Source of the DNA: Thalassiosira profunda
Taxonomy: Eukaryota > Bacillariophyta > Thalassiosirophyceae > Thalassiosirales > Thalassiosiraceae
Direction of reading: 5' to 3'
Assembly (NCBI GenBank): GCA_036939355.1
Contig: JALLAP010000410.1
Location: forward strand, 1-30,211
DNA: 30,211 bases
In this document: one piece after another, positions 5,631 to 27,668 of the stretch
How the letters are laid out: the number at the start of each line of letters is the position of its first letter
Position numbering within the stretch: the stretch's first letter is position 1
The notes under the pieces: model-generated
Told to the model about the DNA's origin: nothing
What the model saw: the letters and a program-made list of their open reading frames with translations, nothing else
The model's database searches: none
Program-made: the position numbers and the translations under genes

Positions 5631-5664
5631 ACAAACACTTATTGTACAGTTATGTGTATTGTAT

Positions 5665-7302: not shown

Positions 7303-7359
7303 GTCCTTCCACTGCGTCCTGCGAAACAGTGCATATGCAGATCTGCTTTTGGAGGAGTC

Positions 7360-7655
7360 ATCCGAGGAGTACGGTATTCAGCCATCTCGCGCATTCCGCC
7401 CCGTAGATAAAGGAATAATATTTCGAGATATGCCGTCGGATTAGCAGCATGTTTTCCCCGCTCCGCGGCGGCAGGTGGTTGATTGTTCTGCCAACGATCC
7501 AATCGTTCGCGGAACGAGCTCTCATCTCCTGATATGCAGTCTGTGGATGCGGGGGAAGTATCATTTTGTAGCGGCGACCAGAGGAGGAGCTTGGCGTCGA
7601 GGACGGAGGGCCACGCGCAGAGGAGAAGGAGGACGAGGGGGCGGCGGGCCGCCAT
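7360..7655 (-). CDS. Probable 5' exon(s) of the J-domain gene with signal peptide
   Basis: An ATG at 7655 opens a frame with a clear signal peptide (MAARRPLVLLLLCAWPSVLDA, cleavage likely after DA), followed by KLLLWSPLQNDTS. A different frame between about 7560 and 7360 has the better codon bias and reads WIVGRTINHLPPRSG and RRHISKYYSFIYGAECARWL before meeting TGA. The J-domain frame takes over below about 7378. I could not find a GT..AG pair that joins all three frames cleanly: the obvious pairs give introns of only 31-44 nt or the wrong phase. The exon structure is therefore open, and an assembly indel is as likely as a missed intron. Confidence 0.45.
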
Positions 7656-8023
7656 CTCCTTCGGGGGTCTGCCCTGGCCGTCAACAACGTCCAACCTCGT
7701 CACCGTCCAAGCACGGGAATCTAGTCCAAGAACGAAGAACAGAGAACAACTTTGCTCGAAAGGGGGCGCCCGCCAGCTCGCCCGCTAAAAAGAGAACCTT
7801 GAAGATACAGCAAAGAGACGACCAGCGGCCGGCGGCCCAGCCAGCCCGCCCGACCCCCGACCCCGACCTCTGCTCCACCCGGACCCCTCTCCGAGCTGGT
7901 AATACGGCGGCGCAAGCCGGAAAATAGCGGGATAATACACGGCGGTGTTCCCCCTCGAGGGCGGTCGACACATCATAGGCGCGTCATTTTTCACCGTGCA
8001 ATCTCCTGCCGCGATATCCGAAC
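7656..8023. promoter_or_regulatory. Divergent promoter region, J-protein / MATH-BTB-SAP
   Basis: This 368-bp stretch separates the putative J-protein start at 7655 (minus) and the BTB gene start at 8024 (plus). It is GC-rich, with short open frames but no coding bias that continues into either gene. I see no TATA box, repeat or RNA gene that I can support. Confidence 0.35.
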
Positions 8024-9331: not shown

Positions 9332-9680
9332 AGCCGGTTGTTGGATTCACTCCAGCTTTTTATGTCTTTGGGGGCAAGCAAACATGCCCTGCTGCTTCGA
9401 TAGGTAGCCTAAGCGTTGGATGCGAGGTAGCCCTGGAGGGAGGAGGAACATTCTTGAGGAGGAACATTCTTGAGGAGACGCTCCTAATGCAAGGGACTAC
9501 ACTAGCGAGGGTTTCTGATCGAAGGGATCCGATTTTGTTCAGACTATCTAATGCATTTACAACTCTAAACCCCCCAATCTTTGCACACAGAACCCGCCCA
9601 TCGGCCCGATTCGCTCCACGTCAAATGTCACATCCTCCCACGTACTCCGTCCCATCTCCATCCCCACTCTCATTCTCGGT
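9332..9680. other. Convergent 3' intergenic region
   Basis: This 349-bp stretch lies between the stops of the BTB gene (plus) and the ApaG gene (minus), so it holds two 3' UTRs. It contains a 16-bp tandem duplication (listed separately). No supported gene. Confidence 0.5.
9441..9472. repeat. 16-bp tandem direct repeat (two copies)
   Basis: AGGAGGAACATTCTTG occurs twice back to back at 9441-9456 and 9457-9472, followed by AGGAG, the start of a third partial copy. It lies in the non-coding stretch between two convergent genes, consistent with replication slippage. Confidence 0.9.
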
Positions 9681-12161
9681 TCATTCGGGAAGGATGAAGT
9701 GGAAGGCGCCCAGCTCGGCCTTCAAGGGCGTGGAGCTGATCGGGGTCTTTCCATCCTCGCCGAGCCGGACAAAGTTGTACTCCCCGCTCATCCGCGCCAC
9801 GACCTTCGTCTTGTCCAGCATGGGACGCACGCTCAACGGCGCCGTGGACGTGTACTCGAAGCTCTCGCCGGGCTTCAACACGGGCTGGCGTCCCGTCACC
9901 CCCGGACCCTGGACCACGTCCTTCGTCGCCGATCCGACCGTCTGGATCTCGAACCGACGGCTCACAAGCTGGATGGAGTTCTCCGATCCCTCGTTCGTGA
10001 TCCGGACGTTGTACGCGAAGCAGTGCTTGTCCAGCGCGGCGTCCGAGCGCTCGGGCCGGTACGTGCTGGTGACGGCCACGCGGCAGTCGGACGTGAGGGT
10101 GTCGCTCGAGTCGTTGGGGCTGGGCGACGTGGGGATGTTTCCGGAGGTCATGTCCGGATCGCCGGGGAGGCTCGAGGCGGGGCTCGAGGAGGAGGTGGAG
10201 GGGGCGGTGGTTGCGTCCGTGGCAGCGGGAGGCGTCGACGCCGCGGTGCCCGACGAAGCAACCGTGGTGGTCTTGACGGCGTCGTCCTCGTCCTCGTCTT
10301 CGTCGTCGTCATCGTCCGAGGGCCTCACAGGCTTGACCCTCTGCTCCTCCGGGAAGACGAAGTGGAACGTGGCCAACTCGGCACCGGCCTCGCCCTGTCC
10401 CCCATTGGCCTGCTCGTCGGTGGCAGTCTCCTGCCCCTCGCCCAGAATGCAGTACCGGTACTCGCCAGACATCCGGGCAGCAATCTGCGTGGTGCCAATG
10501 GGGCGCACACTGAGCGGCGCCGTGGAGGTGTACTCGAAGACCTCGCCCGGCTTGAGCACCGGCTGCCTTCCCGTCACGCCCTCGCCCTGGACCACATCCT
10601 TCATGGAGCTGCCCACCGTCTGGATCTCAAACCTCCTACTGAGCAGCTGCACCGTGTCCGTGGGGGAGTCGTTGGTGATGCGCACCGTGTACTGGAAGCA
10701 GTGCTTCCGCATGGGAGGATCGGAGTTCTCGCTGTTGTACGCCGAGGTAACCTCCACGGTCAGAGGTCCCGTGGTCGAAGTGGACCCCTCGTTGATCTCC
10801 ACGCCGTCGTCGATCTCGCCGCGCGTCACGTCGGCATCGCCGGGGAGGCGGGGACGGCCGCTCCCGTCGTTCTTCATGGCCTCGGCCCGCGCCTGGGCGG
10901 CCTTGGACATGGGACGGCCCTCGGACTCCTCGGCCGGCGGGGCCTCCTCCCCCGCCAACGCCAGGTCGTCCTCCTCGTCGTCCTCGAACAAATTGGACAT
11001 CCGCTTCAGATCGGTCACAAAGTCCTTCATCGTGTTGTCGACGAACTCCGACTGCTTGTCCATGTACCCCACCTCGTCCTCGCTCGTCGCCCCCAGCCGT
11101 TTCATCAGCTCCTCCCGCTTCTTCTCGTACTCTTTGGTGTCCTCCTTCATCATCTCGGCGTACTGCGCGTTCCGGGCGTCCTGGTCCATGATCCCCCGGA
11201 GGTAGGCCTCCTCCCTCTGCCGGGCGATCTCGGCAATCTCGGCCAGGTCCGACTCCTGCTTCATGGGCGAGTCGAGCTTGGCCATCTCCTTCCGCACGGC
11301 CTCCTTTCGGAATTCCTCCTTGGCCTCGTCCTCCATCGCCGCCTGCCGGTCGATCATCTTCTCGAGGCGGTCGTTGGAGAGGTTCATCCCGATGACCTCC
11401 GTGCGGAGGACGTACCCCCGGGGATGGTCGGCGAACTTGACCAGCTGGGGAGGAGGGCCGCCCACCTTGGCAATCAGGGCCTTGACGGTATCGACCTCCT
11501 CCGTCTCGTACTTGATGGCGTCCCCCAGCCGCTCGTTGAGGGAAAACCACGGATCCGAGTTCTCCCGCGCCTCGGCCTCGGCCGCCGCCTCCGCGGCCGC
11601 GAGCAAATCCCCCTGCCTCCGGAGGGTGGGCACGTCGTTCTGGCGCAGCCGGCGGATGACGTTCAAGTTCTCCTCCCGTTCGGTCTCGCTCATCGTCTGC
11701 CCCCGCGCGGCAATGTCCTCGTCGCTCAGGAGCTTCGCCTCGGCCAGCTGCTCCTGCACCGGGGCCTTCCCCGCGTCCCACCCGTACTTTCCCGGCCGCG
11801 GCTTGATGTACGGGTTGGGATCCCACGGGTCGATGTCGATGTCCCGTCCGATCTTGGCCATGAATTTCTCCTTCTCGGCCGCGTAGGCGGCGTAGGGATC
11901 GAGGCCGGAGCCGGCGGGGGCGGGCGCCTCCTCCTCCGCGTCTCCTGCACCGGACTCGCCGCCGCTAGAGTCGTCGCCGGGGGGACGCTCGATCATGCCC
12001 CCGCCGACCATGGAGAGGCAGGTGCCGCCGGTGACGGTGCATGCAGTATTTTGGGATGCAGCAGATGGAGCGGCAGTGCGGTGCAGGTGCGCCGTCGGGG
12101 CGAAGGCGTGCACCGCCGGGGTGGAGGAGAGGGCGGCGCCGAGGGCGAGGGAGAGCTTCAT
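9681..12161 (-). CDS. Plastid-targeted protein with two tandem ApaG (DUF525) domains
   Basis: Single exon; 826 residues from the ATG at 12161. An in-frame ATG 13 codons upstream exists, but the presequence is only sensible from 12161. The N-terminus MKLSLALGAALSSTPAVHA then FAPTAHLH is a diatom plastid presequence with cleavage just before the Phe. Residues about 60-430 are charged, helical and coiled-coil-like (EEFRKEAVRKEMAKLDS, KEYEKKREELMKRLG). Two ApaG domains follow, at about 467-605 and 692-823. Each has HCF.Y.VRITN, SRRFEIQTVGS, VTGRQPVLKPGE and FEYTSTAPLSVRP, then MSGEY. They are joined by an acidic linker (D/E run encoded at about 10280-10320) and a T/S/A-rich stretch. ApaG folds are immunoglobulin-like, occur in bacterial ApaG and in FBXO3 and POLDIP2, and are thought to bind proteins or nucleotides. 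The stromal function is unknown. A perfect TGACGTCA lies about 260 bp upstream. Confidence 0.85.
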   Translation of the reverse strand: MKLSLALGAALSSTPAVHAFAPTAHLHRTAAPSAASQNTACTVTGGTCLSMVGGGMIERPPGDDSSGGESGAGDAEEEAPAPAGSGLDPYAAYAAEKEKFMAKIGRDIDIDPWDPNPYIKPRPGKYGWDAGKAPVQEQLAEAKLLSDEDIAARGQTMSETEREENLNVIRRLRQNDVPTLRRQGDLLAAAEAAAEAEARENSDPWFSLNERLGDAIKYETEEVDTVKALIAKVGGPPPQLVKFADHPRGYVLRTEVIGMNLSNDRLEKMIDRQAAMEDEAKEEFRKEAVRKEMAKLDSPMKQESDLAEIAEIARQREEAYLRGIMDQDARNAQYAEMMKEDTKEYEKKREELMKRLGATSEDEVGYMDKQSEFVDNTMKDFVTDLKRMSNLFEDDEEDDLALAGEEAPPAEESEGRPMSKAAQARAEAMKNDGSGRPRLPGDADVTRGEIDDGVEINEGSTSTTGPLTVEVTSAYNSENSDPPMRKHCFQYTVRITNDSPTDTVQLLSRRFEIQTVGSSMKDVVQGEGVTGRQPVLKPGEVFEYTSTAPLSVRPIGTTQIAARMSGEYRYCILGEGQETATDEQANGGQGEAGAELATFHFVFPEEQRVKPVRPSDDDDDEDEDEDDAVKTTTVASSGTAASTPPAATDATTAPSTSSSSPASSLPGDPDMTSGNIPTSPSPNDSSDTLTSDCRVAVTSTYRPERSDAALDKHCFAYNVRITNEGSENSIQLVSRRFEIQTVGSATKDVVQGPGVTGRQPVLKPGESFEYTSTAPLSVRPMLDKTKVVARMSGEYNFVRLGEDGKTPISSTPLKAELGAFHFILPE

Positions 12162-12943
12162 TTTTTTGCAATGCACCGTTTTGGTAGGCAAATTGGACAC
12201 AAGATGTGCACCGACAGGTCAGTGGATGGATCCGCCGCGCTGCAAATATTATGGGGCTGCTTGGGTTGCTCCGATCAATGGATGTTTGTCATTGGCCGCC
12301 AGAATTTATGGGAGCGGCCGGCACGCCATGTTGTCGTCGCGGGGGGGACTGCTTTTTGCGGTGACGAGGAGAGATTTCAGAAGATCTTTTCGGGTTCCTA
12401 CGTAGAAATATACTACGTGACGTCAGCAGTGCCGAACAGGCCGAATTCTGGTGACACAGCACAGCTGTTGCAAAAGCAAGCAAGCCGAGGAGATCGAGAG
12501 AGTGTTGTTGTCTTCACCGTACAATATCTACCGCACCAGCCCCTCCAGTCCAAGCCTTTGTGCAGCCAATGCTACTTGCTATCTCTAATTGTGCTGGCAG
12601 TCAAGAGGTAGTATGAATCCAGGGCAGGTTGGTGCATGTGACTTGCGGTGGTGCGGTGTGACAAAAAGCCTCAGTTGATACTGCCCGAGCAAAGCCAAAC
12701 CAGGCATCGGAATCTTCTCCATTGAGTTTTAGATTACCGCTAGCCTCGATGCAAGTGAATTGGCCTCTGGCGGCAGTGTATCACTCCTCTTCCACATGGT
12801 TGCCCGTAATCTACATGCATCAGAAGTGATGCACATAGCCTCTCTGACACCTTTCCCCGCATACTATCACAGAGTGTCTCAGTTCAAACCTCAACTCATT
12901 TGGGGATTGTCCAAAGCTCCATGCGATACCCAAACACCCGTGC
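12162..12943. promoter_or_regulatory. Promoter region of the ApaG gene and 3' region of the FKBP gene
   Basis: This 782-bp non-coding stretch lies between two minus-strand genes: 5' of the ApaG-repeat gene and 3' of the FKBP gene. The half near the ApaG start contains TTCCTACGTAG at 12395-12405 and a full CRE palindrome at 12418-12425. No coding frame with local codon bias is seen. Confidence 0.5.
12395..12425 (-). promoter_or_regulatory. CRE palindrome plus ACGTAG-word cluster upstream of the ApaG gene
   Basis: TTCCTACGTAG (12395-12405) is the reverse of the CTACGTAGGAA word found elsewhere in the window. CTACG at 12414-12417 leads into TGACGTCA (12418-12425), a perfect bZIP/CRE palindrome. 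In diatoms, TGACGT-type elements are known to drive CO2/cAMP- and light-responsive genes through bZIP factors. The position, about 230-265 bp before the ATG of a plastid protein gene, fits a regulatory site. Function here is inferred. Confidence 0.5.
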
Positions 12944-13633
12944 TTAGTCGCCAATTATGTCGATCAGTTCCTGCTCCTTTCCGGGCAGACCCACCATCTC
13001 CACGTCGAACGTTATCTCAGCATTGCTCGGGATACGCGGCTTTCCGGCGGACGCGGGGCGGCCCTTGGGTCCAAAGGCAAGGTTTCCCTGCAAAGTTGGA
13101 ACAATCATCGATTGGTTTGCAAGGAACACGAGGTTAGATTGCCAGCTCAATATCAAAAGAGTAGGTAGCACACATGATATGCTCCAACTGCAAACTCCAC
13201 TCACCGGCACGGTCAGCACCCATCGATCTCCCACCCGCATTTTCGGCAGCACCTCCTCGACCCCCTTGATCAAGCCCCCGCTCCCCACGCGGGTGTAGTA
13301 CGGCTCGGGCGTGTCGAAGATGTCGTCGATCTTGTTCTCGCCGGCGAAGGCCGCGAAGCGGATGGCCGCCAGCTCGCCGACCTGGGGCGCGGGGCCCTTG
13401 CCGGCTTTGGTCACCTTGATGCCTACGCCCGACGGGGTCACCTCGTCGGCGAACGCCGGGAGGGTGACGCTGGCGGCGGACGCCGCGGCGATGCCGACGG
13501 CGGCGACGTCGCGGAGGAAGTCTGATCGGGAGGATTGCGCCGCGAGGGCGGTGGTGCGCGGCCGTTGGGACGGGGCGACGAACGCCGCGACGGGCGCCGC
13601 CAGGGCGGCAACGAGGAGGCAGGTCGACTTCAT
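12944..13633 (-). CDS. FKBP-type peptidyl-prolyl isomerase, plastid/thylakoid lumen; one intron
   Basis: Exons 13633-13205 and 13087-12944; intron 13204-13088 (117 nt, GTGAGT...TTTGCAG, phase 0). The spliced product is 190 residues. The ATG at 13633 opens a signal peptide (MKSTCLLVAALAAPVAA) followed by FVAPSQRP, a diatom plastid presequence. A second hydrophobic stretch, about residues 40-62 (FLRDVAAVGIAAASAAS) and ending AFADE, looks like a thylakoid-transfer signal. The FKBP domain covers about 75-180: GVGIKVTKAGKG, VGSGGLIKGVEEVLPKMRVG, then across the splice WVLTVP/GNLAFG and IPSNAEITFDVEMVGL. The pocket Trp of canonical FKBPs is Val here (LIKGVEEV), and the usual pocket Tyr of the YG pair is Phe (AFG). 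Isomerase activity may therefore be weak, as is known for many lumenal FKBPs, which act as assembly factors. The intron is read-through compatible. Confidence 0.9.
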   Translation of the reverse strand: MKSTCLLVAALAAPVAAFVAPSQRPRTTALAAQSSRSDFLRDVAAVGIAAASAASVTLPAFADEVTPSGVGIKVTKAGKGPAPQVGELAAIRFAAFAGENKIDDIFDTPEPYYTRVGSGGLIKGVEEVLPKMRVGDRWVLTVPVSGVCSWSISCVLPTLLILSWQSNLVFLANQSMIVPTLQGNLAFGPKGRPASAGKPRIPSNAEITFDVEMVGLPGKEQELIDIIGD

Positions 13634-14168
13634 CGTGTCGGGGGCGCGGGCAGGAAATTTATGCTGGCGGAGGGAAGGCATGGTGGGAGGGCGCGCGGGT
13701 GAGGTGTCACGTTCGTGGCGGCGGCAAATCTTGAGCCAGAGCAGTGTGACGTAGGTAATTACGACGTACAACCTACTCTTACCTGGGTAACTTTACTTTC
13801 ACCTTTCACTGCACTGAACACCTGAGAAGGAAGCAAGCTCAAGTGCTCTCAACACCCTCTCTTCCTTCTTCTCATCGTCCAGTCTGCTTGAGCAGTGGTA
13901 TAATAAGGCGCAGGTAGTGAGCGCTGGCTGAGCTGAGTCCAATTGCAGTGGAACTCCTACTTTTTGGGTTACGAGACGAGCTTGTTTGCAAGCCACAGTC
14001 ATTCCACGAACTTTCCCGCTATTGTTGTTATTGACGTGCAGGTAACACTTTTTAAGCATCCACGGTCACCAGGTCCCATCTATCTAGGCACAATCTCTCG
14101 CTCATTTCATCATTCTGCTGCCCAACCAAGATCTCCATCCACAAACTTTCAACACTCAAGCAAATTGT
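13634..14168. promoter_or_regulatory. FKBP promoter region and GAPDH 3' region
   Basis: This 535-bp stretch lies between the FKBP start and the GAPDH stop, both on the minus strand. TGACGTAGGTAATTACGACG begins at 13748, about 115-135 bp before the FKBP ATG. It combines a CRE half-site (TGACGT) with the ACGTAGG word. No supported gene. Confidence 0.45.
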
Positions 14169-15476
<1,308 letters not shown>

Positions 15477-15553
15477 CTACATTTTGGCTACAGCGGATCT
15501 TTGGACCGCTTTTGAGCAGCTTTTTGCTGTCACGGACGAATGTCAGACGGGTT

Positions 15554-15570
15554 CACGTAGGAATTGGTAC
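15554..15570. promoter_or_regulatory. Second CACGTAGGAATT copy
   Basis: CACGTAGGAATTGGTAC shares CACGTAGGAAT with 15465-15475. Allowing one extra T, it also shares CACGTAGGAATTTGGTA with the reverse strand at 27064-27080. It lies about 220 bp upstream of the GAPDH ATG. Confidence 0.4.
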
Positions 15571-15824
15571 CCATGAGATTCAGGAAGCGAACCCCTCTCA
15601 AAAAAGTTGCAAAGCCGCATGCAAAAGAGAGAGGAGAGCGCCGAGAGAAGAGGAAAGGAAGTTGTCAAGCCCAAGACCCCCCGCCAGCCATCCAGAACAA
15701 AGCAAGCTGACAACACGAAGACGGAGAGCTGAGGGGACACCCCGCGCTCATAATTTGCAGCAAAGGCACCAAAAAGAAGAAGCAGCAGTGCATCATCAGT
15801 AGCAGCATACACATCAACAAAAAA

Positions 15825-17252
15825 ATGAGCAGCAGCGCGGCGTCCACCCTCCTCAACGTCGCCCGGAGCCACAGCGCCAGGGACGTGATGGAATTCACGG
15901 CCGCGAAGCGGGCGAAGCAGCTCGAAAAGGCCCGCTCCTTCAGCGAGACCGAGGGGGCCAAGTCGGAGACGGTGATCGTGGTGGACTCGAAGCTTACCCC
16001 GCTGGAGGCGGCCACCCTCCTGTGGGAGAACAACATGTGAGTGTCAGCTTGTGTGGTGTTTGTTCTTGGTTGAGGATGATTTGTGCTGGTGTGCGTATGC
16101 ATAAAACTCTTTGATGGCTGGGCTCATTGCACCACAAGGTAGATGCCCGGCGAGATTTCAGAGTTGCATGCATCGTCCTCGGTTTACCCCGAGTATCTCG
16201 TTTTTTCATTGGATACTAGTTGCACATCTCGGTATCACCGCCGGATTTGTGAACGCTGCAGCTCGGAATGTTGATATGCCTTTCTACAAAGTAACTTGTG
16301 CTGATGCATCGTCTTCTTACCCTTCTTCCGCAACATACATAGCATGGGAGCACCGGTTTACGACGCAGATGCCAAAACGTACGTGGGAATGTTCGACACC
16401 CGCGACATTTTATCCTGCGTCACGGCCGCCCACCGCGAATTTCTGGCAATGGGCGGGCATCACACCCCCGGCGCTGATATCACCATACCCCACGACGTGG
16501 AGCTGCATCACAAGACGCAGAGCGAGCTGATGGCCAAGGCATTGCAGCACATCAAAATCAACACCAAGCCCCCGGCTCCGGGGGCGGTGACGGTGTCGTA
16601 TCTGGCAGCGCGGAATCCAATGTTGCCCTTTTTTACGAAGGACAGCACCCTCGTTGATATCTGCAGGGAGCTCGGAGCACGCAATAAACACAGAGTGCCC
16701 ATCACGGACTCGACGTCCGGTTCGCCCGTCTGCACTGGGATCGTCTCTCCATCGGGACTCGTGGCCTTCATTGCCAGCAAATGTCCTCCCGGATCGATGG
16801 ACGAAAAGATGAGCGACGCCGGCCTGAACTTTCGCAAGGAGGTTGTGCAGATTAACGACGAGGCGAGCGCCGCCAGCGCCTTCGAGCTGTTGGATTCCAG
16901 ACGATTGAGCGGGATTGCGGTGGTGGACGAGGATGGCAAGCTCATTGGGAACACCTCGGCCAGGGATATAAAGAATGCCGTGATGGACGCGGGACGAACG
17001 GGCATGGACATGGACATCATATCTTACCTCGCCAAGGTCCGGCAGAGCCAGATCGTAAAAGACGACAAATATCCGTCCTGCCACGTGCACGAAGACGCGA
17101 CGGTGGGTCACGTCGTGATGATGCTGGCCAAGACAGGATTCCACAGGGTGTTCGTAGTGGATGCCGGCATGAAGCCGATCGGCGTGGTGAGCTTTGCGGA
17201 TATCATCAACTTTTTCCTCGAGAAAGGTGAGGCGACAAATGGCGGAAAATAA
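15825..17252 (+). CDS. Four-CBS-domain protein (AMPK-gamma/SNF4-like); one intron
   Basis: Exons 15825-16036 and 16343-17252; intron 16037-16342 (306 nt, GTGAGT...ACATAG). The splice completes an Ile codon, reading LLWENNI/MGAPVYD inside the first CBS domain, exactly where the fold needs continuity. The product is 373 residues. The CBS motifs are: 1, VIVVDSKLTPLEAATLLWEN to YVGMFDTRDIL; 2, VSYLAARNPMLPFFTKDSTL to GIVSPSGLVAFIAS; 3, VVQINDEASAASAFELL to LIGNTSARDIKNAV; 4, SCHVHEDATVGHVVMMLAKT to PIGVVSFADIINFFL. Paired CBS domains bind adenine nucleotides, and four in a row is the arrangement of AMPK gamma. No targeting peptide is seen, so a cytosolic energy-sensing role is likely (inference). 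A stand-alone CBS protein unrelated to AMPK is the alternative. Confidence 0.9.
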
Positions 17253-17422
17253 AAACGATGCAGAGCCGTTTGGGCGCAGGTAGGCAGCTAACCAGGGGAA
17301 TGGCACAGGGTTCAGGATCATCAATGTTTAATATTATATGGCGGTTACATCACAACTAGACGTCTACCAGTTCCTACGGAGCTGAGAAAGGAGCAAGACA
17401 AACGAGATTTGGTTGAAGAATG

Positions 17423-20400
17423 CTACCGGTAGGCAGAAATGGGTAGCTCCGGGCTCAACATCAAATAGAGGATGAGTGTGGTTCCAATCGTTTGGACAGC
17501 GGCGTGAGCTCCGAATCGAACAGGTCCGATCCTGTTGTCGTCGCACAACTTTTGGGTCAACGATACTGTGCAAGCAAAGGACGTAACCATCACAACGAAC
17601 TGAACGGCATGGATGGTGCCCCAGTCAGCTGCAAATTGCGGGAGCCCGGATTTCATTTCCTCTGAAAATGGCAAATAGAAAGTCTCCGGCAGCCGAGCGA
17701 GGGTTAAGCCAAGTCTTGGGTGATGGAAAGTGTATTTGAGCGAGAGCGTGTATCAAAGAAGACCAAGTTGGAACCGAAACACTCACTCTCGCATCCCCAG
17801 TCCTAGCCAATAAGAAGTCAGCGACCCCCACGCGAGCGGGAGGTATCCGTACCCAATTTCCTGAATGCCAACCTTGACAGTCTTTCGTAGGATGCTCATG
17901 AATTCAAAGAGGTTCAACCTTCCTAGGCCGAGGACGTCGGCCTTGTCAAACAAAGCACTTGATTGCTCTTCTGTGAGAGGTCTCTTGAAATACCCGAGAT
18001 CTGACATCGTGGCGAACTCCTCCTTTGATATAAAGCCGTTTCCGTTCCGGTCTAGTCTATTGAAGATCTCCACGAATGTGAGAGACGTTTGGAGCTCGTT
18101 CTCTGCCTTGATGCTTCGATACGTTGGCCGCGACGGCTGCTCCGTCTCTTTGATGTCAAAGTACAACTCTTGTATCTCGTCAAATAGCGTTGAGACGGAT
18201 ATGTCACCACCTCCCCGCGCCAGGACATTCCTCAAAAGCTCGTGCTGTGCTTCCGGGATTCGGAGCCTCTGGAATGCTTCCTTCAGCTCCCAGTCAGCGA
18301 CAATGCCGTCTCCGTCAACATCAAACTCCTTCATTGTTTCGGCCAGATCGGTATCTTGGGCCACGAGAGACTCGTACAGATTGACGATCGCGTAGTTTTC
18401 TGCGGGTCTACGAGTCAACTCCCTCCGGAAGACATTCACAAGCGATTCCAAAGGCGCAGCGGCAGCGTCGGCCGCGTAGCTCAATGTGCCCGGAAACGCT
18501 AGTATCACAGCCGCAAGTGCTGCGTGTTGCGCGGAGGGCACATCAAAAGCAGGAGGTGCAGTTGCAATTGTTGGGTCCAGGCCCACATCTGTCAGTATCT
18601 TGGGCAGATAATGCAGAGCGACGCCGCCCTGCAGGATTGTCAAGATGCCTCCCAGCCAAAAGTTCGTCTCCACTTGCGATGGCGCTAAGAACTCCGGCTT
18701 CTGGAGCTGCTTGGGCAGAAACCATGGGAGGCCATAGTCTTGACCGAGCGGGCGCACGTTAAACTCTGGGGCTTCCCGTTCGCAGTTCTTGACGCAGCTC
18801 ATGCACATCACGCAATCGCCCATGTCTCTCAATTGGTTGTTCTTGAGGTCCATTGTGCATCCCTTAATGGCGTATGCATCGGCTGGATCCAGAGCAACCG
18901 AGCCACCCTTTTTGCACGACGTCGTTGTGCACCCGTCGCAGTTTGCTTTCCACGTCCGAACCTCGGTCATGGCGGCAGTTGCAAATATCTTATTCATTGC
19001 ACCGATGGGGCACAAGAACCGGCACCAAAGCCTCTTCTCGAATATTACGGAGTTTATGACAGCCCCAGCCGTTATGAGAAGCAAAAGGCAGGAGGACAGA
19101 ACGCCGTTCTGAGGCAGATCCCAAAGCTCCTCCCACATTAGGATGGCGTAGAAGAGACCAAAGGCGAATGCAGGGCCAGCCGTTTGGCCCCACTTGGGCC
19201 ACTTCCTCAGTTGCACGTCCATAGCAAGTGCGGCATCCTGTGCCAAGTTGCCGAATGCCATGAAGGGACAAATGGTGCACCAGATGCGCCCCAGAAACGG
19301 GAACACGAGCATGATGCCCGGCCACCAACCCGCCCAAAAGATCGTGAGTATCGCATTCTCATTTCTTGCCTGCGGTCCAAGCCAGAATAAGGTTGATCAC
19401 CACGAAGACCGGCGGCACGATGTATTTCAGCGTCTTGCCAAAGATCCAAGGAGACATGATGAACTGTCGCAGGAATGGGACATTGTAGAGCAGCCGGTTC
19501 CGTATCTTTTCATTGTTTGCGTTGATGAGCAGATGGCGCGGCTCGAGGGTGTTGGACGCGAAGGGATTCCACTTCCTTTCTGATGCGAGCAGCTTCAACG
19601 CATCAAAGAGCTCCGTGTCCAGTTCGGCATCCGCATCGATGGCCCACGAATGGTCGAGGAGGCGCTGTGTGGCTTCCTTGCTCAGCTTGACGTCGTTCAT
19701 TCCGAGGGTTTGCTCGATCTCCCGAATCTTGCACACCGAAATGTCCTTCAGATCCTTTGTTCGACTTTCGAAGGATGGCACCTTTATGAATATGGTATCA
19801 ACGGTGCCATCGTCCTGCCCACTCTTGAAGTAGTCTGGATCACGTTGCGTGCATCCGATGATGCGTGGCAGAAATGGCTTGGTTGCATTCTCAAATGTGC
19901 TGTAATACCTTCTCTGAATAAGGTCTGTCAGTGCATGCACCAACTCCTCCCGCCGATCGTAGCTCTCCCTGCTCTCCACATGCAACGACTGAAACCCCTT
20001 CAAGATGACAGTGGTATTCGCTTGCCCAGACAAATCGTCCAGCAGGCCCGGGTGGGCCTCGGTGCCGAGGACAGTGTCGATGAAATCGAGCGAGTCGTCC
20101 AGCGACAGTAGATGCACTTTGCTAGTCTGCCAGGACGGCAGGCGCGACGCGATTTCCTCCGCCAGTTCGCCCTTCCCCGATCCCCGCGGGCCGTGCAGGA
20201 TGATGGGCGCGGTGTTGTCGGGATCGTTCCAGATGGCCTGCACCTGCTTGCGAAGCTTGATCGCCTTGGGCGACGTGCCCACCATGATGGAGCAGGCATC
20301 TTGCGCTGGCAACCCTTCGCTGTTATCGTCCGCGCTGCCGACGGCTACGCTGTTGAGTGGTCGGCTTGGACGGAGAGTGGGGTAGTTCAACACCCGGCGG

Positions 20401-20465
20401 GACGGCTGGAACGCGTCCACTCCCAACGCGATGGGGCCGAGAAGGGCGGCAGCCATCAGCATCAT
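17423..20465 (-). CDS. AAA+ / NapH-type 4Fe-4S membrane protein / EF-hand fusion, plastid-targeted; frame break and one intron
   Basis: A minus-strand gene of about 990 residues. From the ATG at 20465: a diatom plastid presequence (MMLMAAALLGPIALGVDA, then FQPS). Next, at about 62-300, comes an AAA+ domain like the sigma-54 interaction domain (GTSPKAIKLRKQVQ; Walker A GPRGSGKGE at 92-100). It has no GAFTGA loop. After a helix at about 345-360 comes a NapH/NosR-like segment: LGPQARNENAILTIFWAGWW, GRIWCTICP, LWCRFLCPIGA, then Fe-S ligand sets CDGCTTTSC with KGC, and CVMCMSCVKNC. The C-terminal part has four EF-hand units, two canonical (DVDGDGIVADWE, DRNGNGFISKEE) and two degenerate, then more membrane helices. 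A 72-nt intron, 17786-17715 (GTGAGT...CCCAAG), joins GMRE to LGLTLARLPETF. The AAA+ frame ends at a TGA at 19359. The Fe-S frame overlaps it, and one extra base near 19388 separates them. Confidence 0.75.
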
Positions 20466-20767
20466 GATATTCGATGACGTCGATTGCAAGACGGACACAT
20501 TGCATGCATTATTCCAGCCCACCATGCATCATTCCAGCCCGTCCGGCTGCACCGACTACGCGCAGCAGGCTCCTCTCTAGACCCTATGCCCCAGCAGACC
20601 GCGGGGTAGATACAGGAGCTGCACAAGCGGGGCGAGGCTCGCATTCTTTCTGTCTCAAGTCTCAACTCCCGCGGCCAGCGGGCGGGAGAGCCGTGGGGAG
20701 AGGGACTGAGAGGGAGCGAGCCGCGCCAGACGCCACAAAACAAAAACTAAGAAAGCCCCCCACCATC
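20466..20767. promoter_or_regulatory. Bidirectional promoter, AAA-FeS fusion / CobW GTPase
   Basis: Only 302 bp separate the two start codons. ATGACGTCG at 20474-20482 contains a CRE half-site (TGACGT), and GCATGCA palindromes lie nearby. A near-perfect 15-bp word, GCATTATTCCAGCCC / GCATCATTCCAGCCC, is repeated at 20507 and 20526. The frame of the GTPase stays open through this stretch, but the sequence there is low-complexity and not protein-like. Confidence 0.5.
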
Positions 20768-22744
20768 ATGTGCCGCCCGATCATGGTCGCCGCCTCCCTC
20801 ACCGCCCTCCTGTGGCGGCGCGCGTCGGCCTCTTCCTCGTCGTTCGCGCCGCGGTCCTCGCTGGCGGCGGCGGGGCGTTCTCCGGCTTTTTGCAACCCAT
20901 CACGTCGACGTGGGACCGCACCTGCACTGCTGGCGTTCCAGCCCATTTCCTCCCGCCGGCCGCTGGCCACCGCCTTCTCCAACGATCCCGCGTCACGAAT
21001 TGCGGCGCGCACCCTCTCCACGTCGACGTACCTCAAGGCCACCTCCCAAGTCGAGGGCGCCCCGCCCGATGCTGCAAAACAGCGCAAGCCCATCCCCACC
21101 ATCCTCCTGGCCGGGTTCCTCGGCTCCGGCAAGACGACCACCCTCAAGCATTTGTTGGAAAACAACTCCAACATCAAGATTGGCACGATTGTCAATGATG
21201 TCGCCTCGGTGAACATCGACGCCAAACTGATCGCCAACAGCGATTCTAGGACGGAGGTCGAGTTCGGCGGGGCCGAGGGGGTGGTGGAATTGCAAAACGG
21301 GTGCGCGTGCTGCTCGCTGGCGGACGAGCTGTTCACCAGCGTGGTGCGGCTGACGCAGAACGGAGAGCGAGAGCTGGACGCAATTGTGGTGGAATTGAGC
21401 GGGGTGGCCGATCCGGTGGCCGTGCGGGACAATTGGAAACAGGCCGAGTTGATGGGGCATCCGGCCACCCGCCTCGCTTCGTTGCAGCGCACCGTCACCC
21501 TCGTCGACGCGTGCACGTTCGGGACGGACTGGATGACGTGGGACGCGGCGATGGAGCGCGAGGGGTGGACGGCGCCGGGCGACGATTGCACCGGCTTGCG
21601 AAAGGTGCCGGAACTGTTGGCCGAGCAGGTGGAGGCGGCCGATTTGCTGGTGATCAATAAAGTGGACATCGCGGGGGAGAAACAGGTGGGCGTGGCGAGC
21701 GGACTGGCGAAGGGGATGAACGACAAGGCGGAATTGCGGGAGGTGGAATTTGGGAAGGTGGGGGCGAGGGAGTTGCTGGGGGAGGTGTTGGACGAGGAGG
21801 CGAAAGAAGCAGAGGCAGCGGCGCATTCGCACGAGCACGGGCACAACCACGAGGCTTCGGCGGAGCACGATCACGGGCACGAGGCATCGGCCTGCACTGA
21901 CCCTGGCTGCACGGACGAATCCCATTCCCACTCACACGAGCGCGCGGCAGAATGCGACGATCCGTCGTGCACGGACGATTCTCATTCACACTCTCACGAG
22001 CACACGGCAGAATGCGACGATCCATCGTGCACTGATACATCGCATTCGCACTCCCACGATCACTCCGCCGCAGCGGATCACTCCACAACGGCCGCGGATC
22101 AACTGGGGATTACCAGCTTTGTTTACAAATGTTCCACGCCGTTCAACTCGGAACGTCTCCTGGCGTTGCTCAACCGGTGGCCCGTCCCCATCAAAGATTC
22201 CTTGGACTTTGGGCTCCTGATGGGAATGGGTCAGGAGGGCAAGATTGGCGAGTCGACGCCCGAGGAGAATAAAATGTTTGTGGGCGTGCTGCGCTCCAAG
22301 GGCTTTTGTTGGATGGCGCCGACCAAGTGGTCGACGGGGTCCGGAGCGACGGGTGGCGATGCCTGGCGTCACGACACGGCCATGTATTGGAGTCATGCTG
22401 GGAAGCACTTTGGCATTTCATCCGCTGGGAAGTGGTGGGGATCGCTTTCCAAAGAGCAGATGAAACCCTACTTTGCAAACAACATGAGCGAGTATGACCG
22501 GATCATGCGAGAGGACTGGATCTCGGAGGAGTGGGGCGATCGGAGGCAGGAGCTTGTATTCATCGGTGCAAATTTGGACGAGGCCGAGATCAGGGCAGCC
22601 CTGGACGCGTGCCTTTGCACTGCAGAGGAGATGGAGGTATATCGAGCACAGCTGCGGAACTACATCGATCCTACCTTCTCAAAGGCGGCGGATGGTCCAT
22701 CACTGTTTGACGCTGGCGGGACGGACCACATTGAACAGAATTGA
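20768..22744 (+). CDS. COG0523/CobW-family metal-chaperone GTPase (ZNG1-like) with His/Cys-rich repeat loop
   Basis: 658 residues from the ATG at 20768 (context CACCATCATG). An in-frame ATG at 20474 would add 98 low-complexity residues and is less likely. An organelle-type N-terminus (MVAASLTALLWRRASASSSS then FAP) precedes the G domain: Walker A GFLGSGKTT (about 116-124), switch region NDVASVNID, then EFGGAEGVVELQNGCACCS with the family metal motif CxCC (C179, C181, C182), ELSGVADP, and NKVD (about 297-300). A metal-binding loop of about 65 residues follows: HSHEHGHNHE, then three 20-residue units of the type ECDDPSCTDDSHSHSHEH. The CobW C-terminal domain contains VLRSKGFCWMAP and ELVFIGANLDEAEIRAAL. 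The family delivers Zn or Co to client metalloproteins using GTP. Whether it acts in plastid or mitochondrion is not settled by the sequence. Confidence 0.92.
   Translation: MCRPIMVAASLTALLWRRASASSSSFAPRSSLAAAGRSPAFCNPSRRRGTAPALLAFQPISSRRPLATAFSNDPASRIAARTLSTSTYLKATSQVEGAPPDAAKQRKPIPTILLAGFLGSGKTTTLKHLLENNSNIKIGTIVNDVASVNIDAKLIANSDSRTEVEFGGAEGVVELQNGCACCSLADELFTSVVRLTQNGERELDAIVVELSGVADPVAVRDNWKQAELMGHPATRLASLQRTVTLVDACTFGTDWMTWDAAMEREGWTAPGDDCTGLRKVPELLAEQVEAADLLVINKVDIAGEKQVGVASGLAKGMNDKAELREVEFGKVGARELLGEVLDEEAKEAEAAAHSHEHGHNHEASAEHDHGHEASACTDPGCTDESHSHSHERAAECDDPSCTDDSHSHSHEHTAECDDPSCTDTSHSHSHDHSAAADHSTTAADQLGITSFVYKCSTPFNSERLLALLNRWPVPIKDSLDFGLLMGMGQEGKIGESTPEENKMFVGVLRSKGFCWMAPTKWSTGSGATGGDAWRHDTAMYWSHAGKHFGISSAGKWWGSLSKEQMKPYFANNMSEYDRIMREDWISEEWGDRRQELVFIGANLDEAEIRAALDACLCTAEEMEVYRAQLRNYIDPTFSKAADGPSLFDAGGTDHIEQN
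21901..22080 (+). repeat. Three 60-bp tandem coding repeats (Cys/His metal-binding units)
   Basis: Units at 21901-21960, 21961-22020 and 22021-22080 are in frame and encode C-DP-CTD-SHSHSH repeats inside the CobW GTPase. The second and third are most alike; the first has diverged. The pattern fits duplication by slippage followed by selection on Cys and His. Confidence 0.85.
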
Positions 22745-22868
22745 ATGAAATGTCGAGACATTGACTGCTTCTCTTAATTGTAAGACATGATCACTGCATC
22801 TCATCCCCGGACGACGCTTCTCTCGGAATCTGGCCGACACAAAGACCCCCTACCAAATCTTTTCCCCA

Positions 22869-23050
22869 TTACGCAAGGAAGGCAGCGGCCGCGGTGACAA
22901 CAGCGAGCACTCCCATGCCAACACCTCCGGCAACGCCACTATTGACGGTGCACGTCGCTCCCATCGCGGCGAGCAAGTCCTTCAGTTCGGGATCTTCGTT
23001 GATGTTTGCGATATGATCGTCCCACTGGGACGCGTCGCACTTGAAGTGGG
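22869..23050 (-). pseudogene. Orphan 3' coding piece of a secreted, GPI-anchor-like protein
   Basis: A minus-strand frame of about 60 codons ends at a TAA at 22869-22871. It reads KCDASQWDDHIANINEDPEL, then KDLLAAMGATCTV, then NSGVAGGVG and a hydrophobic end, MGVLAVVTAAAAFLA. This is the usual end of a small secreted Cys protein with a GPI-attachment signal. A TGA at 23052-23054 closes the frame upstream. Possible splice acceptors are ACTGAG (exon from 23050) and TTCAAG (exon from 23039). No start codon, signal peptide or upstream exon is present before the next gene's stop at 23124. It is either the displaced last exon of the secreted protein at 27195-27668 (same strand, correct order) or a decayed copy. 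Confidence 0.55.
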
Positions 23051-23123
23051 CTCAGTAGAACGACCTAACTGCGGCTCTGTCCACTACTTTAGCACGTATG
23101 AAGCCAGCGAAGGGCCCGGATCA

Positions 23124-26100
23124 CTACTCCGAAAGGTCCAGCTCGTTCATTGCTTTCTCCTTCCTCGCATCATGGCGCGCCTTGCGCTTCTGCACGTTCT
23201 CTCTGAGGCCAGCAACAATCTCAGCCGAGGGATCCAACCACTTCTGAAACTCTTTCGGGATGGACTCCTTGATCGCCTTCTTCGTGGCGGTCATTGCGTT
23301 CGTGCTGTAGCCCACCCGCCCCTCCTCGAGCCGATCCCCAAGATTCAACAGTCTGATGATCGCTGCTCCACATATATTGTTGCCGTCTGGATCAGTGTCT
23401 CCGCCATAAAGGCCCTGGTTGAGCATCTGCCCGATGGGTAGCACTTCCGCCAAACCATTGATGTAGGCTCTCTCGAACAAAATCGACGCACTGCCACCTC
23501 TAGTCGGGCGCAAGTGGACTATCTTGTACTCCAGCAGACGGCCGGAGTTCTCCGGCCCAAAGTCGCTCAGTTCGAGACGGACGCCAACGCCATTTTCGTC
23601 CTTCTTCAACAGGATATTGTTGCGGTTTCCAATGAGGAACGCGGCGAACTCGTTGTTTTTGATGTTTCCTTTGGAGTCGATCGTGAAGTCAAACGCGTAG
23701 ACACCCTCGAAGACTCCGCTCGCCAAGATCCGTTGGGCAACTCTAACAGCATCGTCGAAGGCCTTCTCGCGAGCTCCCTCTTCGGTGACGCGAAAGAGGC
23801 GACTGTCATGCTCCATTGATTCGAGGAGCTTTGCTATGGCGAGCAATTCTTCCTCCTTCTTCCTGCGCTTACGCTCCCTATTCGCGGCTCTCCTCGAGGC
23901 GTGAAATTCAGCTGCACGTTCTTCGTCCATCGCTGCAAGGTATTTGACAGTCCTCGCACTTTTGACAGCTCTGGCGGCACCGCATTTCTCCATGACAGCG
24001 TCTCCCTCCGGTGATCCACGCATATGGAGAGCGAGGCGGAACTCAGGAGGCAATAGTGCGCCGAGTCGGAAGTTCAGAAATTGTCGCTTTCCATCAAGAT
24101 CCAGTGGGTCGACAAAGGTCCGGATGCCCTCCCCGGTTCCTATGTTGAGGAGCTTTACGGCGCACTCTGTGCTCATCAAATGAATCGTCGCCCTGTTTGT
24201 TGCGATGACATCCTTGCCACAATCAAAAGGGCAGGGGCAGGAGGAAGTTGTTGTCGACGCCCCCTCGCTCTCCCGAGTTCCTTTTTGGTACGGACGTTGC
24301 GACAGCACCAGCTTCGATTCGTCGACCGCTGGTAGCATCGATTTGCCGGTCGACGGCTGGCTCAATAAAAGAAGGATCTTCTCTCCTGCCTCCTCCCAGA
24401 CAATAGTTCCGCCGAGCTGGGGCGATTCAATCGTTTCACCGTTGCGCAGCCTGGTCATGAATGCCAGGTGATCGTGGGCAGCCTTCCACGTGCCGTCGCC
24501 GTCTTGGACAAAGAAGCTCTTGCCAAAATGCCTCTGATTGAGTCCTACTGGCGCAAGTACACCACCGTTCTTCTTCCTCGTGCGGATCTCCTCCACAGAG
24601 TATTCCTCCATACCCAGACCAAGGAGTGCCGCAGGAAGATAGGTCGTCTCCACTTCCTCGCGAGCCTCCGCAAGGTTGGTGGCCTCGCTCGTGGCCCTGA
24701 ACTCTCTGAAAAGCGTCTTCAGCATGGGCCCGAAAACATCGTTAGCCGAAGGAGGAAACAAGACCTGAATACAAAAGTGATCGCCTTTGCGTCCGGACTT
24801 CCAGCAACCGTCCATTCGCGTCTTCGGCGACTCATTCTCCTTGGACTGAACGTGGATGGTGATCGTTGAGACGCCGGACAGTTCGATGCAGAAGCGCTCG
24901 TTCGCCAGGCCCTCGTTCTTTTCGGTCCAGACCTTCCATCCAAGGCGACGGATCTCGGCAGGGAAGATGGTCTGTACCAGATCATCGATGGCTTCGTCTC
25001 TGGTCTTTGAGTTTTTGTGCTTCTTCCTGTAGGCTGTGAACGCTTTGCCCAGCGCTCCACTGGCGCCCGCTTCGGACGCGATGGAAGAAGGAGTCGCGAT
25101 AGTGAGCTTGTCTGTGTTGCTCCTCCACGCCTTCAGTTTGCGTACTGGGGCCTCGCCCCCGCCCCGCTTTGCCTTTGCCGGCAAATACCACGTCCCACTC
25201 GCCAATTGGTTGGACAGCGAATTGATATGGATCGTGTTGCCAGAGCGAACAACGCGGAAGCGCTCAGCCTTCTCCTCCTCTGCCAACTCGTCCTCATTCT
25301 CCTCTGCGACCTTCGCGCGCGACGTCGTCCCGACATTCATTCCTGTCCCGGAATCCTCGGGCGTAACGATGTTGCTGGACTTCTTCCCTGTCGACTTCGC
25401 CGGCGTGACGTGCGTGGTGCTGGCGCCGTGCTCCAGGGTGCTCTTGACGCCCAACTCTGACGAGCCCTTCTGCGCGGTGCCCATCCCGGAGAGCGATTCG
25501 TAGGCCGACGGGCCATTCTGCGCGAAGCCCGTGCCGTGGTTGTTGGCCGCGTGCATCTCGGCGTGCAACTCGTGGCCCGCATCGTTGCTGTTCTTGACGC
25601 CCAACTCGGACGAGCCCTTCTGCGCGGTGCCCATGTGGGCCGTATCATTGTTGGTTTTCGCCTCGTATTCGACAGACACGTCCTCCGGGCGGAGAGGCTG
25701 GTAGTCGTGGCGCCAACCATTGATCGCCTCGTCAAGTTGGATGTACTTCCAAATCTCTCTTGCCTCGATGTATCTTTCAAAGAAGGGCACTGGCCCCAGC
25801 TGGCATTGTTGCAAAGAGAGGGGGGTTTGGCGAGGATGTAGAGAGGATACACAAGATACCATACACACACTGGCTTACCGGCCCCTGCACCACGGAATCC
25901 GTGCCACCCACCCCGTTGCGGTTGCCCCCCTCCGCCACCACCATGTTGTTCTGCACGGCCATCGTGGGGATGGCCTTGTTCTCCTCGCCCTCGTCGCCCT
26001 CGTCGCCCCCGCCCCTGCCGTCCCCGCCCGCCATCTCGCCCTGGCGGTGCACCGCGCCCCCGTCTTTGGAACCGGTCACCGCCACGTCAAGCCGTACGCC

Positions 26101-26877
26101 CGCCCCTCCCTCCTCTCCCAACACAGCCACCTCGTCCGCGCCGTCGTGGCGGTCCTTGTCGGCGGCGGCCGTGTCGTCGTGGCCCTGCCCTCGCTCGCCC
26201 CCATCGTTGGCGTCCACGCCCTCCGCCCCCACGACAGACGTGGCCGTGGAGGAGGCGCACGCGCGCCGAGGACTGCCACTTGTCTTGAGCTTGGCACGGT
26301 CCCTTACGACGCGTCGGGGCGATCCCTGGGGCGACGCGTTGGCCGGGCGCTTCTGTGGCTGGCCACGGGTGGCGTCCGAGAGGCGTTCCTTGCCCACCGC
26401 CACGGCCGGCTCCTCCTCCGCGCCGAGCTGGGCATCCGCCTCCTCCTCTGCACCCGCCTCCTCTGCACCCGCCTCTTCCACCTCCATAGATGTCGCCTTG
26501 CCATCGTCGCCCTCCTTTGCAACCAGGGCGTTGGCGCCCTCGTCGGGAGGATGGTCTGCACCATTGTCATTGCCGCTGCCATCTTGCTTGCCCGATTCCT
26601 GAACCGCGGCGTCGTCATTGTCGTGGGCGCTGCGCCCCTGCCGATCGGCGACTGGCCCATCAGGAGGGGCGAGCTGACCATTGGCTGCGGTGGGGTCCTC
26701 TACAAATGCTCCGTGTGGTGCAGTGGACCGCGCTCTCACGTCCGCCGATCTTGTCCCATCCACACTCCTCCCTGCCGCTTCAATTGCAGGCGGTTGTTGG
26801 CTGCTCATCGGCCGCGGCTGCATGAAGAAGCAGATGGAGGCCCGGCCCTTCTTCTGGCCGGATTTCTTGTTGGCCAT
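23124..26877 (-). CDS. Large orphan protein of unknown function, two exons
   Basis: Exons 26877-25879 and 25799-23124; intron 25878-25800 (79 nt, GTAAGC...ATGCCAG). The splice joins VVQGP to LGPVPFFERYIEAREIWKYI in frame. The product is 1224 residues. The ATG at 26877 (CGGCACGATGGCC) is the first ATG of the frame. Residues 1 to about 330 are disordered, charged and A/G/E-rich with basic patches (KKSGQKKGR, SPRRVVRDRAKLK), suggesting a nuclear or nucleic-acid-binding protein. A 14-residue unit, MGTAQKGSSELGVK, occurs twice. The middle holds a Cys/His patch, CPCPFDCGKDV...HLMSTEC, that could bind zinc. A basic coiled-coil (SRRAANRERKRRKKEEELL) precedes a folded-looking C-terminal region (GVYAFDFTIDSKGNIKNNEF, YGGDTDPDGNNICGAAIIRL). 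I recognise no family, and no reverse transcriptase, integrase or helicase motif. Confidence 0.75.
25442..25634 (-). repeat. 43-bp direct repeat, two copies 150 bp apart, inside the orphan gene
   Basis: Copies at 25442-25484 and 25592-25634 differ at one base and encode the repeated MGTAQKGSSELGVK segment. The spacer encodes a diverged stretch (HAANNHGTGFAQNGPSAYES). The high identity suggests a recent duplication or ongoing conversion. Confidence 0.85.
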
Positions 26878-27194
26878 CGTGCCGCGCCACAAGTTGGGCA
26901 ACAGATCAGTGGAGAGCTGTCGAATGCCCAGGAAGTGGCAGTCTGCGGGCTGAGCCTTGGTGTTGTTTTGCTCTCCGGATTTTTTGGCCAGCAAATCTTC
27001 TCTGAAGTCTTCTCCCCCAGTGAAATGTCAGCGGCCAACCTCCTCTTTCTTGAAATAACTACATACCAAATTCCTACGTGGTATCCGGTAGCAAATAGGA
27101 CATTTTGGCACTCGACATTGGACAGCCATGTATCATAGCTGTTTTAGAGTCTCACACTGGTACTAGTTCCTCTGTTTGTATCTAAACTAACTTG
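26878..27194. promoter_or_regulatory. Upstream region of the orphan gene with CCACGTAGGAATT motif
   Basis: This 317-bp stretch lies between the orphan gene's ATG and the stop of the secreted-protein gene. On the minus strand it carries CCACGTAGGAATT (27081-27069), about 190-200 bp before the ATG, and ACATTTTGG-type sequence nearby (27103-27110). The GAPDH/CBS spacer shares both the word and ACATTTTGG (15479-15487). No separate gene is supported. Confidence 0.45.
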
Positions 27195-27668
27195 CTAGCA
27201 AATAATCAAGGTTGTTGCCTCTCTACCTATTCTAGGGAGATAGAGAGAGGAGCTCTCCAAGCACTCGGGAATGCCGTCAGTCTCAATCGTGAAGCTCTCG
27301 CCCTGGGCACTGCACGTAACGGTGAGCTTCTCCGCCTCGATGACCGTGCCGTTTACATCGTTGCAGGCATCGCGAAGGGTTTCCGCCACTTCCGGGCACA
27401 CGGTGAAGTCCATGGTAATCTTGTCGGAAGTTTCGGTGATGGCCTCGGGGCAGGCGCTTACAGCGCCTTCCGCGGCGGCAACGAAGGTGGGGTCTTCGGC
27501 AAGCGCTTCGTTGGCCGCGAGGCACTCGTCGCTGAGCTTGAGATGGCGGTGGCGGTTCGGCGCGAGCATCCTGCGCTGCACCTTCTCGAGGATGGCATCC
27601 CTATCGAAGGTGGAGACCGATGCGGCAGCTGCGGCAGAGGCGAGGAAGGCGACGGAGAAAAACTTCAT
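27195..27668 (-). CDS. Small secreted cysteine-containing protein (possibly truncated)
   Basis: Open frame of 157 residues, ATG at 27668. The signal peptide is MKFFSVAFLASAAAAA. The mature part has spaced Cys residues (DECLAANEAL, VSACPEAIT, FTVCPEVAETLRDACND, VTCSAQGES, IPECLES), a pattern expected for a small disulfide-bonded secreted protein. After IPECLESS the sequence changes to SLYLPRIGREATTLIIC, which is AT-richer and unlike the rest. That part coincides with an imperfect hairpin at 27219-27247. No GPI-like or other C-terminal end is present, whereas the orphan piece at 22869-23050 has exactly such an end. The reading may therefore be a 5' half truncated by insertion, or a complete protein with a divergent tail. 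The function is unknown. Confidence 0.7.
   Translation of the reverse strand: MKFFSVAFLASAAAAASVSTFDRDAILEKVQRRMLAPNRHRHLKLSDECLAANEALAEDPTFVAAAEGAVSACPEAITETSDKITMDFTVCPEVAETLRDACNDVNGTVIEAEKLTVTCSAQGESFTIETDGIPECLESSSLYLPRIGREATTLIIC
27219..27247. repeat. Imperfect inverted repeat (10-bp arms, 9-nt loop)
   Basis: CTCTCTACCT (27219-27228) pairs with AGATAGAGAG (27238-27247) with one mismatch around the loop ATTCTAGGG. It lies at the point where the secreted-protein reading loses its family-like character. Confidence 0.7.

Follow-up and report, generated by a model that had tools for sequence, protein, structure and literature searches.

In a 30,211-nucleotide stretch of Thalassiosira profunda DNA (contig JALLAP010000410.1; hereafter the window), we describe a gene on the minus strand whose product joins an AAA-like domain, a membrane iron-sulfur (Fe-S) part and an EF-hand insert in one chain. 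Our best reading, to which we give a probability of somewhat under one half (about 0.45), is that this protein would be a stroma-facing, calcium-modulated electron conduit in a plastid membrane, a mechanism that we infer from its parts. By its predicted features, it is a nucleus-encoded diatom protein of plastid type. An AF-type motif after a signal peptide is a mark of diatom plastid presequences, and both the window gene and P0001 (the hypothetical protein ACHAXT_007508 of T. profunda, 1006 amino acids) have a hydrophobic start followed by such a motif, which a simple regular expression also found in 16 of the 19 diatom-type starts listed. The diatom plastid presequence proposed in a first-pass annotation of the window, a signal-peptide-like N terminus with an AF-type motif at 20465-20394, is confirmed as a sequence feature, from which a plastid location is predicted. 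The labels diatom-type, dinoflagellate-type and green-type used here were given to rows of the alignment by similarity.

Membership of the protein in a cyanobacterial and plastid family is well supported. Members of this family combine a sigma-54-type AAA+ fold that lacks Walker B residues with a NapH-like, 12-cysteine membrane segment and further C-terminal helices. Of the conserved cysteines, four (CxxCP and CxxxCP) are located within the membrane or beside it, and eight are of ferredoxin type; in P0001, they occupy positions 413, 416, 498, 502, 526, 529, 534, 553, 568, 571, 574, and 578. P0001, the window frame and 64 of the 88 aligned rows hold all 12. The other 24 rows are P0007, P0143, P0249, the N-terminally cut P0032 and 20 short diatom-type models (551-672 amino acids, ending soon after "NNQLRDMGD"), which look as if they run on into an intron. 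The window piece scores 39.9 bits against the Fer4_5 profile (PF12801; cut-off 22). The NapH/NosR-like membrane 4Fe-4S segment of the first-pass annotation therefore stands, with its two ligand sets corrected to 12 cysteines. As it had also proposed, further membrane helices are present; alignment and model place them C-terminal to the Fe-S part and the AAA-like domain before it.

The EF-hand insert sets the diatom proteins apart from their relatives. It scores 40.5 bits against PF13499 (cut-off 30, window piece) and lies between two C-terminal helices (659-699 and 886-921), where 13 diatom-type rows carry 166-181 residues and non-diatom rows 0-68; the C-terminally cut P0014 has 128, and the 20 short diatom-type models terminate upstream. 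The EF-hands had been placed behind the membrane part, but the alignment puts them inside it. Their predicted number, two canonical and two degenerate, agrees with what we found: the canonical loops are at 18322-18287 and 18052-18017, one degenerate loop is at 17938-17903, and the remaining EF-hand was located by its helices in the structure model alone. Canonical loop 1 was present in 15/15 diatom-type proteins scanned and canonical loop 3 in 12/15, while 323 of the 325 other proteins scanned had no canonical EF loop; P0056 and P0241 (Durusdinium type) have one near the N terminus. In eleven diatom-type proteins (P0001, P0003-P0010, P0012, and P0013), the AAA-like, membrane Fe-S and EF-hand parts occur together in a single chain, as they do in P0014 as far as its truncated C terminus. 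The single joined protein proposed at first pass is thus found repeatedly, and the contrary outcome that had been named with it, homologs that never join these domains, was not observed. At the level of the aligned proteins, the comparison shows that the diatom lineage gained the EF-hand block as an insertion into a protein of this cyanobacterial and plastid family. A search of the T. profunda assembly with the EF block returned only the two copies of this gene and no donor. In the structure model, in which nine membrane helices were counted, the insert is predicted on the same side as the AAA-like and ferredoxin-like parts, and the opposite-side loops hold 3 K/R in 59 residues; the side bearing the EF insert would be the stroma. 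Two observations concern particular gene models. The Durusdinium-type EF loop precedes the AAA-like domain, unlike in other dinoflagellate rows, and would be an independent second EF-hand gain if P0056 and its close copy P0241 hold as gene models. The 1335-residue model P0002 (Discostella) has the AAA-like and EF parts twice and lacks the full Fe-S part; it may represent tandem copies or a faulty gene model.

Among 244 genomes of the cyanobacterial phylum, 117 had any match to the family; in 62 of them the match was strong (best E ≤ 1.3e-233), and the remaining matches were short and confined to one domain. Strong matches were found in 62/116 genomes with PsaA/B (photosystem I) and in 0/128 without, so that a family often named as a transcription regulator is restricted, in the genomes searched, to those with photosystem I. 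The family was missing from 15/15 photosystem-I genomes under 2.4 Mb. In the 101 photosystem-I genomes of at least 2.4 Mb, with genome kinship not controlled, its presence was not associated with NiFe hydrogenase (39/62 genomes with the family versus 28/39 without; p = 0.39) or with PFOR (37/62 versus 26/39; p = 0.53), and an anaerobic or fermentative role is therefore not favored. Some cyanobacterial genomes carry two copies (G062, G050, G074, G112, and G203). Among the matches listed, the named diatoms are T. profunda, Discostella, Cyclotella cryptica, Cyclostephanos, Skeletonema, Seminavis, Amphora, T. exigua, and Thalassiosira sp. AJA248-18; the green algae include Chlamydomonas, Volvox, Gonium, Coccomyxa, Trebouxia, Klebsormidium, Micractinium and others. 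Dinoflagellates, the chlorarachniophyte Amorphochlora and cyanobacteria also appear among these matches, and no red alga, haptophyte or brown alga does by name.

In a first tree of 87 rows, the diatoms formed one clade on a long branch beside the long branch of marine Synechococcus, a placement that drew a warning from the program. After removal of 17 rows, namely the long branches other than diatoms, the second tree (70 rows) grouped the diatoms with dinoflagellate-type, chlorarachniophyte and unnamed rows (22 rows; SH-aLRT 71, not decisive). The P0118-type set forms a long branch of its own. Plastid inheritance and a single early transfer would both fit these sequences. A cyanobacterial AAA+/Fe-S ancestor that later acquired EF-hands, as proposed at first pass, fits the family distribution, the alignment and the trees. 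We toned down the idea that Ca2+ replaced a cNMP, as the cNMP-type domain of the cyanobacterial rows inspected lacks, by eye, the usual phosphate-binding signature; a PF00027 profile search in the T. profunda genome added nothing.

Fer4_5 proteins such as NapH shuttle electrons between quinones and Fe-S partners. As the family is confined to phototrophs and the diatom protein has a presequence, the simplest reading is a conduit that links a stromal reductant with the membrane. The membrane would be the thylakoid or the innermost one of the plastid; the AAA-like domain, ferredoxin-like domain and EF-hands would all face the stroma, and electrons would travel between ferredoxin or another stromal carrier and the membrane (quinone) via the eight-cysteine and four membrane-cysteine sites. 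Stromal Ca2+ would bind loops 1 and 3 and shift the pair of long helices on either side of the insert, and this shift would alter partner binding or the transfer of electrons; as for the AAA-like domain, it would serve as a scaffold or nucleotide-binding surface rather than a motor. A calcium-responsive redox device, as first proposed, is plausible. The domain content hints, without demonstrating it, that calcium may tune an electron-transfer step in diatoms. The more specific proposal, an unrecognized ferredoxin-to-quinone route of oxygenic phototrophs, retained by many cyanobacteria and several plastid lineages, that diatoms put under stromal calcium control through EF-hands inserted between its membrane helices, that is, a calcium-gated enzyme of cyclic electron flow, we regard as quite improbable.

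Several results weigh against the conduit. The NapH/MauN profile (TIGR02163) scores only 35.1 bits, and 38.1-51.6 on relatives, far under the curated cut-off of 213.05, so that the quinol activity of NapH is not transferable to the diatom protein. A model of the membrane Fe-S part by itself (from P0055, mean pLDDT 92.3) matched no solved structure at E ≤ 0.001. Loop 3 is non-canonical in 3/15 diatom-type proteins (P0006, P0009, and P0012). The absence of the family from 54/116 photosystem-I genomes means that it is dispensable, and across 48 cyanobacterial loci no conserved neighbor was found, the widest other cluster of open reading frames (ORFs) reaching 11/48 and the immediate neighbors differing. 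Finally, the P-loop lysine is invariant (85/85 rows) and followed by S in 11/32 diatom-type rows, which is compatible with nucleotide binding and even with a role for such binding.

CcoG and NosR feed electrons into cofactor insertion or repair of other complexes. A membrane reductase or assembly factor that does the same for photosynthetic complexes, with Ca2+ signaling stress, would share the Fer4_5 membrane architecture and suit a patchy distribution among phototrophs only, but none of the 48 loci contains linked assembly genes, and we consider this role rather unlikely.

A protein whose clusters sense rather than conduct, reading redox state and calcium and acting through partner binding at the AAA-like domain, would account for the sensor-type domains joined to the Fe-S part (cNMP type in cyanobacteria, NtrC-type AAA+, and EF-hands). 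An AAA+ fold of NtrC (sigma-54) type is confirmed by the structure model, despite AAA+ and sigma-54 Pfam matches of the window piece that are all under their cut-offs. However, none of 340 proteins matches G[AG][FY]TG, the GAFTGA-type loop whose absence had been noted at first pass, and the precomputed Pfam lists of relatives contain no DNA-binding domain among the matches listed. Such a sensor is unlikely.

It is very improbable that the AAA-like domain still binds ATP and forms rings as part of an ATP-dependent protein that hydrolyzes with unusual residues. The AAA+ fold, a P-loop glycine as constant as the lysine (85/85) and an S or T after the lysine in 12/32 diatom-type rows speak for it, but the Walker B Asp-Glu pair is found in 0/87 rows with letters at that site. 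The pair being absent along with GAFTGA, the earlier description of the protein as ATP-responsive is unsupported, and nucleotide binding without hydrolysis may be possible, the P-loop lysine being kept. The Walker A box of the first-pass annotation was reduced to a partial one (GPRGSGKG, with the lysine but not the following S/T), and its sigma-54-activator-like domain to a modeled fold with sub-threshold profile scores and no Walker B.

The gene is real and single. The contig of the window (G000:C409) carries exon 1 broken into two frames, ending at 19359 and 17783. The assembly holds a second copy, C24 (L005 1-6254), which matches window 16845-23039 at 89-91% DNA identity and whose exon 1 is a single open frame of 917 amino acids; an 890-residue query from it matches P0001 with 100% identity. 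Relative to C24, 2 nucleotides are missing from the window copy at 19387/19386, which breaks the frame; allelic variation, an assembly error or recent breakage of this copy may account for the difference. The ratio of nonsynonymous to synonymous substitution rates between the copies (0.162 before the indel and 0.071 after) indicates coding sequence conserved on both sides. The C24 frame is open across this point and there is no intron, so the idea of one protein was right, though not by splicing there. P0001 also reads through the predicted exon 1/exon 2 junction with matching junction residues. Two separate genes or an assembly artefact, as the offset frames of the window would allow, are hardly credible given the single C24 frame and the joined parts in diatom-type proteins from several sources. 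The diverged pair may stem from a duplication, from the two haplotypes or from a close relative present in the assembly. Window 1-16000 contains no comparable second copy, its best matches being short (73-90%).

Features of the gene in the window, in the direction of transcription
Feature	Position	Strand	Remark
Signal-peptide-like start with AF-type motif (DAFQP), MMLMAAALLGPIALGVDAFQPSRR	20394..20465	-	sequence read
Exon 1, first frame: presequence and AAA+-like domain	19387..20465	-	frame ends just past the 2-nucleotide gap 19387/19386
P-loop remnant GPRGSGKG	20169..20192	-	S/T missing
Walker B position NTTVILKGF	19992..20018	-	no Asp-Glu
Exon 1, second frame: membrane helices, Fe-S part, EF-hand insert	17787..19386	-	
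First membrane cysteine pair WCTICP	19265..19282	-	
Second membrane cysteine pair WCRFLCP	19007..19027	-	
Eight ferredoxin-type cysteines, CDGCTTTSC ... GC ... CVMCMSCVKNC	18782..18940	-	
EF-hand insert, ~170 amino acids	17870..18427	-	limits approximate
Canonical EF-hand loop 1 DVDGDGIVADWE	18287..18322	-	
Canonical EF-hand loop 3 DRNGNGFISKEE	18017..18052	-	
Degenerate EF-hand loop 4 DVLGLGRLNLFE	17903..17938	-	
Intron, GT-AG, 72 nucleotides	17715..17786	-	sequence read; junction residues as in P0001
Exon 2: last membrane helices and stop	17423..17714	-	

Read from the window sequence, the two exons together span 20465-17423. A CobW-type GTPase (PF02492, 130.7 bits; PF07683), whose linker is repeated and His-rich, lies head-to-head at 20783-22744 (+), an order maintained on C24, and a CBS-domain protein (PF00571) at 16305-17252 (+) is directly downstream, facing the gene. 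Window ~23040-27255 is missing from C24, where the flanking matches (23039 and 27256) are nearly adjacent; the missing stretch includes a 916-residue ORF (23124-25874, -) with no Pfam match.

Among the known systems closest to the diatom protein are its cyanobacterial relatives (e.g., P0099 from Nostoc, P0104 from marine Synechococcus), which share the AAA-like domain, 12 cysteines and C-terminal membrane helices but have no EF-hands, are ~30% identical to it and in many cases carry an N-terminal cNMP-type domain (PF00027), also retained by Coccomyxa rows among the matches listed. Cyanobacterial members (e.g., P0069 and P0099) are named "sigma 54-interacting transcriptional regulator" or "4Fe-4S binding protein" in databases; the regulator names look misleading in view of the missing GAFTGA and Walker B pair and the membrane Fe-S C terminus. 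Green-algal, dinoflagellate and chlorarachniophyte relatives (P0079 Chlamydomonas, P0238 Effrenium, and P0248 Amorphochlora) have the 12-cysteine core in common without the EF-hand insert, the Durusdinium proteins P0056 and P0241 having their one N-terminal EF loop. NapH/MauN proteins align in the Fer4_5 membrane cysteine pairs and the ferredoxin part but differ in lacking AAA-like and EF-hand parts and in their profile score, and the sigma-54 activators NtrC1, FlrC, and PspF share the NtrC-type AAA+ fold but, unlike the diatom protein, have GAFTGA and the Walker B pair.

In the literature searched, from which most subscription journals were absent, we found no paper on this protein or family, and the accessible part of a paper on algal plastid Fe-S proteins mentions neither NapH nor polyferredoxin (PMC8003979). 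According to the accessible text of PMC11663583, diatom KEA3 and the PGR5-like DSP1 are plastid proteins with EF-hands linked to photoprotection or cyclic flow, the diatom stroma undergoes large Ca2+ rises under high light and H2O2, and the plant sensor CAS is absent from diatoms; KEA3, an antiporter, and DSP1 have their EF-hands at the C terminus, unlike the Fe-S protein (PMC11663583). Tic20 of ochrophytes and dinoflagellates is described, in the portion available, as a plastid membrane protein of cyanobacterial descent to which a non-cyanobacterial EF-hand domain was added; that domain is shown to be stromal, but Tic20 belongs to a protein translocon and its EF-hands are N-terminal (PMC6720183). 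Chlamydomonas chloroplast calredoxin likewise joins EF-hands to a redox domain, in its case a thioredoxin domain, as the accessible part of PMC4911631 reports. The diatom form would be a candidate target of stromal Ca2+ signals, and what reads chloroplast calcium in diatoms becomes a question testable on one gene. By analogy, KEA3, DSP1, and Tic20 may be taken as precedents, parallels rather than proof, for the addition of EF-hands to plastid proteins.
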